The notes under the pieces were generated by a model. That model had not been told where the DNA came from and made no database searches. It saw only the letters and a program-made list of their open reading frames with translations. A program made the translations under genes and the position numbers. This document shows, in pieces, positions 5,077 to 5,460 of a DNA stretch of 5,460 bases (the first letter of the stretch is position 1; every line of letters starts with the position of its first letter). Origin of the DNA: Candidatus Sumerlaeota bacterium (lineage in GTDB: Bacteria > Sumerlaeota > Sumerlaeia > JAFGJS01); assembly GCA_016928995.1 (NCBI GenBank), contig JAFGJS010000002.1, positions 1 to 5,460 on the forward strand, read 5' to 3'.

Positions 5077-5379
5077 ATGTATAAGTATTATTTAATCATC
5101 GCATTCATAGCATTAATTTTCACTTCATGCAGAAAAAAAAGCGATAAATATATTTTTTCTTTGTATTATGAATGTAAGCCAATAGTTGTTTCTCTCGAGA
5201 ATTATAAGTCATTACATAAGAAATATCCCGAATCACTAGACGAATTATCCCAAAATTTCACACGTCCAAGTATTGGTAGCATATGGCGCTATTGTAAACC
5301 GCATAAAGATTGCATGGAATATGAAATAAAGGTATTTATACGACGCAATGGACTCGGCGATGAATTTTGGTTCTTATAA
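5077..5379 (+). CDS. Small AT-rich lipoprotein, pseudopilin-like motif, function unknown
   Basis: A 100-residue product with a short lipoprotein signal: MYKYY, hydrophobic core 'LIIAFIALIF', lipobox FTSC with Cys18. The mature part contains 'ENYKSLHKKYPESLDEL' (about 41-57), which resembles the 'Y...G.YP.sLdeL' element following the pilin helix in GspG-type pseudopilins and in many short uncharacterised lipoproteins. The similarity is by eye and assigns no function. C33, C73 and C79 are the mature cysteines other than the lipidated one. GGGGA at 5066-5070 lies six bases before the ATG. The gene is strikingly AT-rich compared with ubiX, ending 25 bases upstream, and its codons favour A/T in third position, which suggests separate origin or transfer. 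The stop is one base from the putative IS end, so the C-terminus might have been altered by the insertion, though the stop codon itself lies outside the element. Confidence 0.75.
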   Translation: MYKYYLIIAFIALIFTSCRKKSDKYIFSLYYECKPIVVSLENYKSLHKKYPESLDELSQNFTRPSIGSIWRYCKPHKDCMEYEIKVFIRRNGLGDEFWFL

Positions 5380-5380
5380 T

Positions 5381-5460
5381 TGTCCCCAAAAACTGGACAG
5401 CCATTAAGGTGGATTTTTCTCCGGTTTTCGTTCGAAAATTCAGAGGAACGAAAAGGAGAG
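5381..5460 (+). mobile_element. Probable left end of an IS3-type insertion sequence (cut by window edge)
   Basis: From 5381 the sequence TGTCCCCAAAAACTGGACAG starts with TG, as IS3-family ends do, and has the 'CCCCAAAAA-ct-GGACA' look of IS3/IS150-type terminal repeats, including a small internal inverted pair TGTCC/GGACA (5381-5385, 5395-5399). About 70 bases later comes a strong purine-rich ribosome binding site, AAAAGGAGAG (5451-5460), at the very edge, which is where orfA of such an element would be expected to begin. No transposase codon is in the window, so the call rests on terminal-repeat resemblance and layout only. An alternative is an ordinary intergenic region before an unrelated gene. 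Confidence 0.55.
5418..5459 (+). promoter_or_regulatory. Hairpin that would sequester the ribosome binding site of the next gene
   Basis: TTTTCGTTC (5425-5433) is perfectly complementary to GAACGAAAA (5446-5454) around a 12-base loop. After a two-base bulge (GG, 5423-5424) the stem continues with TCTCC (5418-5422) pairing to GGAGA (5455-5459). Fourteen base pairs thus cover the whole AAAAGGAGA ribosome binding site. In transcripts entering from upstream this would hide the site. IS10 and IS50 are known to block translation of their transposases from read-through RNA by the same principle. The pairing is directly seen; the function is inferred. Confidence 0.55.

Follow-up and report, generated by a model that had tools for sequence, protein, structure and literature searches.

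In IS10 and IS50 the element's own transposase transcript begins inside a hairpin whose 5′ arm it lacks, and only RNA entering from outside is silenced. In ISPpu9 the secondary structure of the tnp mRNA leader is part of a regulation in which two small RNAs are also involved (PMC8450116), and for IS2 the promoters generated at the junction of the element's ends are established, in addition to a weak internal promoter in the left end (PMC3299598).

The window examined here (the whole 5,460-nucleotide stretch) is one entire contig ending with base 5460, and its 3′ edge harbors a hairpin composed of an inner stem, in which TTTTCGTTC pairs with GAACGAAAA at 9 of 9 positions around a 12-nt loop, and an outer stem, in which TCTCC pairs with GGAGA at 5 of 5 positions, the two stems being separated by a 2-nt bulge (GG, 5423–5424). 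Taken together, the two 3′ arms fully cover AAAAGGAGA (5451–5459) and, within it, the AAGGAG that we take to be the ribosome binding site of orfA, an analogous GGAG being located 8 nt before the OrfA ATG of the closest relative (L044, genome G012). By the same analogy the start of orfA would lie just past 5460, i.e., beyond the contig. This arrangement of stems and bulge over a complete Shine-Dalgarno site had been described in an earlier, sequence-only reading of the same DNA, whose coordinates and pairing are confirmed. The features involved are the following:

5418–5422, forward strand: 5′ arm of the outer stem, TCTCC
5425–5433, forward strand: 5′ arm of the inner stem, TTTTCGTTC
5446–5454, forward strand: 3′ arm of the inner stem, GAACGAAAA
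5453–5458, forward strand: Shine-Dalgarno-like AAGGAG, presumed orfA ribosome binding site (from the sequence and by analogy to L044 of G012)
5455–5459, forward strand: 3′ arm of the outer stem, GGAGA

The leader (5375–5460) has a predicted folding energy of −23.9 kcal/mol (z = −2.7), equaled by 2 of 200 shuffles, the hairpin by itself being predicted at about −15 to −16 kcal/mol; in this full leader the predicted accessibility of the binding site is 0.07. A search for an intrinsic terminator found none.

That the window edge, a left end, belongs to an IS3-type element, as the sequence-only reading had proposed, is borne out by way of relatives. The closest of these, from the same class (genome G012), has an end that is 88% alike over 32 nt and encodes an OrfA (HTH_Tnp_1) and an OrfB (rve; NCBIfam IS3 family transposase), with profile matches to PF01527, PF00665 and NF033516, the latter at 285 bits vs. 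a cut-off of 160. Elsewhere the exact 19-nt end is found nearly always in Phycisphaerae and other Planctomycetota, and in one Omnitrophota genome. In the Phycisphaerae copies L049, L058, L142 (G389) and L146 (G446) homology is lost soon after the left end, and truncated or decayed copies seem to be common in this class.

Within its own genome the left end (the last 86 bases of the window, or as much of them as fits) occurs at at least 15 places, each at a contig end, with 15 copies identical in sequence, while the matching right end, ..CCACCTTAAAAAATCGATTTTTTGTCTAGACAGAGGGGACAAGCTCA, is present in 14 copies, likewise at contig ends; the repeated element is evidently the cause of the assembly breaks. 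A search with a relative's OrfB found no match to the interior of the element in the contigs of the genome, nor did the left end match any of the viral contigs and plasmids searched. The termini and their immediate surroundings comprise the following features:

5077–5379, forward strand: lipoprotein-like gene disrupted by the insertion and reading into a stop codon of the element; continues in contig C18 (L092)
5372–5374, no strand: left copy of the target duplication TCT, the same TCT following the right end in L092
5375–5380, forward strand: left terminus TATAAT (all 15 copies), which could serve as the −10 of a promoter at the circle junction
5375–5412, forward strand: left terminal inverted repeat region, TTGTCCCC ... 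TTAAGGTGGA; TTGTCCCC and AAGGTGG also in the right end

TATAAT starts the left end in every copy, the sequence upstream of it not being conserved among them, and TAGACA is found near the right terminus in 14 of 14 right ends. Terminal inverted repeats are present, TTGTCCCC and AAGGTGG being common to the 15 left and 14 right ends, and the termini are not of the 5′-TG...CA kind: the right end, read as its reverse complement, starts with TGAGCT and the left with TATAAT, TATA-type left ends (TATAGT or TATAAT) being seen in several relatives too. The right ends (L092, 40–80, and others) also carry two perfect palindromes, AAAAAATCGATTTTTT and TGTCTAGACA, neither of which is present in the left end.

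In contig C18 the right end is followed by TCT, the same 3 bases that precede the left end in the window, and when the flanks are joined over this TCT the frame of the interrupted gene extends and gains a second repeat unit (..YPESLDEL..RPSIG.. and ..YPESLKEL..PPSIG..). The in-frame continuation and the second unit support the view that the left end of the window and the right end of C18 form a pair, as well as a 3-bp target duplication, documented for this one copy. The product of the interrupted gene (5077–5379, together with L092) is short and lipoprotein-like, contains a duplicated unit and has no Pfam family match. The gene lies between the element and ubiX, so that the glnS-ubiE-ubiX unit from which the sequence-only reading had derived read-through is not directly upstream of the element.

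Elsewhere in the window, positions 37–1482 of the minus strand hold a gene whose product has a Laminin_G_3 (concanavalin A-like) domain and, in the region 1715–1875, hexamer-like repeats (CTTGCTCTTGCTCCTGCTCC.., 1715–1760) face a reverse-complement-like stretch, GAGCAAGAGCAAAAGCAGGAGCAAGAAG, near 1849–1875; repeats of a similar kind, GACGAGAACGAG, border a further copy of the element (L001).

RNA entering the element via its left terminus would fold the hairpin over the orfA ribosome binding site. Indeed, the site is predicted to be hidden (accessibility 0.02–0.09) in read-through RNA from 14 of the 15 insertion sites and to be half open (0.46) in the remaining context. In a 411-nt read-through RNA, whose stability as a whole is not unusual, the hairpin is present in the minimum-energy structure as well as in the centroid. 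The element might also be transcribed from a promoter of its own. If the ends are joined with an assumed 3-bp spacer, the TAGACA of the right end comes to lie 18 bp from the TATAAT of the left end and, judging both ends by consensus, this would likely constitute a strong native promoter formed on circularization. Such a near-consensus TAGACA/TATAAT pair would arise only upon end joining. The same 18-bp geometry, with a −35 matching 5/6, is found in L061 and L081, two relatives with TATA-type left ends, and is absent from others. RNA from near 5387, the predicted circle-junction start, retains the whole hairpin, with an accessibility of 0.11. Since the candidate circle-junction promoter starts upstream of the hairpin, circle transcripts and read-through RNA would carry it alike; the hairpin therefore cannot distinguish between them, which makes general damping the better reading.

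The interpretation tentatively preferred here, which we rate at slightly below even probability, is that the window ends with the left end of a high-copy IS3-type element whose leader hairpin covers the orfA binding site and generally damps transposase translation. Both read-through and circle-junction RNA would then translate orfA poorly and the hairpin, if it acts at all, would be a general damper on transposase translation rather than a filter against read-through RNA only. We infer as plausible that the predicted structure forms in vivo, with the circle promoter in use and translation lowered.

A real possibility, though on the less probable side, is that the stem is a by-product of chance or composition, a purine-rich binding site being located downstream of a pyrimidine-rich subterminal segment, and has no selected role. 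Apart from 5425–5433/5446–5454, the whole window has no perfect stem of 9 bp or longer with a loop of 3–20 nt; shuffling leads one to expect 0.4 such stems per window, a number that suits a by-product, and 0.0135 per leader. On the other hand, when the leader is shuffled with its last 15 nt held fixed, a stem of at least 9 bp appears at the place of the hairpin in 0.65% of the shuffles and the binding site is hidden as well as in the real leader in 1.9%, and it is the whole binding site that the pairing covers. The hairpin exceeds chance for a single pre-chosen leader, yet it was selected from a 5.4-kb read. Furthermore, the right end carries a TTTTTC..CCTCCGG segment resembling the 5′ arm region of the left-end hairpin, so that the constant position of this region may reflect a DNA function and it may be at the DNA level that the outer 5′ arm is maintained.

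The family-wide comparison also speaks for a by-product. The compensatory changes in the arms that the sequence-only reading proposed to look for among copies did not emerge: the 15 own copies are identical and thus provide neither a covariation signal nor a test of selection, and the 31 leaders of OrfA relatives display no excess of hidden binding sites, their accessibility averaging 0.51 vs. 0.52 in shuffles with the binding site and coding start kept fixed (mean percentile 0.50). Family-wide conservation of hidden binding sites is accordingly rejected, the relatives being equal to their shuffled controls. The 9-bp arms were sought and not found in the relatives with a similar OrfA, and in the G012 leader the binding site is not hidden beyond shuffles.

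Against a by-product, the start region of a cousin subgroup in Phycisphaerae has a possible pairing partner at the same position: ATTGTTTTCGG, which follows GGTGGA as the 5′ arm region does in the window, is able to base-pair with CTGAAAACAAT or CTCGAAACAAT so as to span the start codon. In the alignment of this subgroup, the sole alignable one, 87% of the cells are paired vs. 30–59% for slid partners, but the covariation is not significant, which fits a by-product: only one cell is doubly changed, and the score is reached in 77 of 500 shuffles. Four Phycisphaerae leaders, closely related and hence not independent, fall at the 2nd to 8th percentile for accessibility of the start region. The nearest match to the outer stem of the window is found in L135 (G421), where TCGTCTCC pairs with GGAGACGA over the binding site, the hiding of which reaches only the 7th percentile. 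The interpretation of TCGTCTCC/GGAGACGA as three compensatory changes was rejected, the 3′ arm being 5 nt off the aligned place. It could be imagined that in the subgroup this left-end segment is an anti-initiation arm directed at the binding site in the window's element and L135 and at the start codon in the Phycisphaerae cousins, keeping translation off unless the RNA starts inside the hairpin; we consider this doubtful.

Less probable still is a read-through-specific protection, in which the element's own transcript would begin inside the hairpin, without the 5′ arm, and RNA from outside alone would be silenced. This was the function suggested by the sequence-only reading, and the part of it that stands is the predicted hiding of the site in nearly all insertion contexts. 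In its favor, RNA from 5434 or later is predicted to leave the binding site open (0.97–0.98), and the Phycisphaerae cousins have TATACT or TAGAAT after the 5′ arm, RNA from there being devoid of that arm and the predicted accessibility of the start region being higher if RNA starts after TATACT (e.g., 0.40 → 0.84 in L122). The specificity is not supported, however: a consensus search of the element revealed no promoter able to start RNA inside the hairpin, past the 5′ arm, TATACT is absent from the window's element, and RNA from the candidate circle promoter would begin before the entire hairpin. Finally, that the inverted repeat is a DNA site, e.g., for a repressor such as OrfA, instead of an RNA hairpin is very improbable, for although IS2 OrfA reportedly binds immediately before the internal left-end promoter (PMC3299598), relatives with a similar OrfA lack the 9-bp arms and it would be a coincidence that the repeat overlaps the binding site.

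If general damping is real, an IS3-type element would join those that limit transposase translation via the mRNA leader, and it would be easier to understand why insertions of a high-copy element within or beside transcribed genes are tolerated, with the caution that, the circle-junction promoter being upstream, the hairpin cannot tell own from read-through RNA. The overall picture would be one of ordinary IS biology with a plausible translational damping, read-through specificity being unsupported.

Compared with the IS3 family at large, the element resembles its members in the end shared with the OrfA/OrfB-encoding G012 relative and in the 3-bp target duplication, whereas its left terminus starts with TA instead of TG and its own transposase frames are outside the assembly. 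The Phycisphaerae IS3 subgroup (L046, L122, L119, L138 and L135) shares the 19-nt end and TTAAGGTGGA, its pairing arm follows GGTGGA at an equal distance, and L135 also has the TCTCC × GGAGA pairing over the binding site; unlike in the window's element, the pairing is in most of these over the start codon, and the subgroup has TATACT in the loop and a TGAGCG/TAAGCG terminus without a −10. With IS10 and IS50, which belong to different IS families, the element shares the predicted hiding of the transposase ribosome binding site on read-through RNA, but the consensus search found no internal promoter yielding hairpin-free RNA, and its junction RNA would keep the hairpin. As in IS2, the ends would form a promoter on joining, although IS2 needs 17 bp and the junction spacing deduced here is 18 bp with a 3-bp spacer. 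With ISPpu9, finally, where two small RNAs take part in the regulation, the element has in common a secondary structure, here a predicted one, in the leader of the transposase mRNA.
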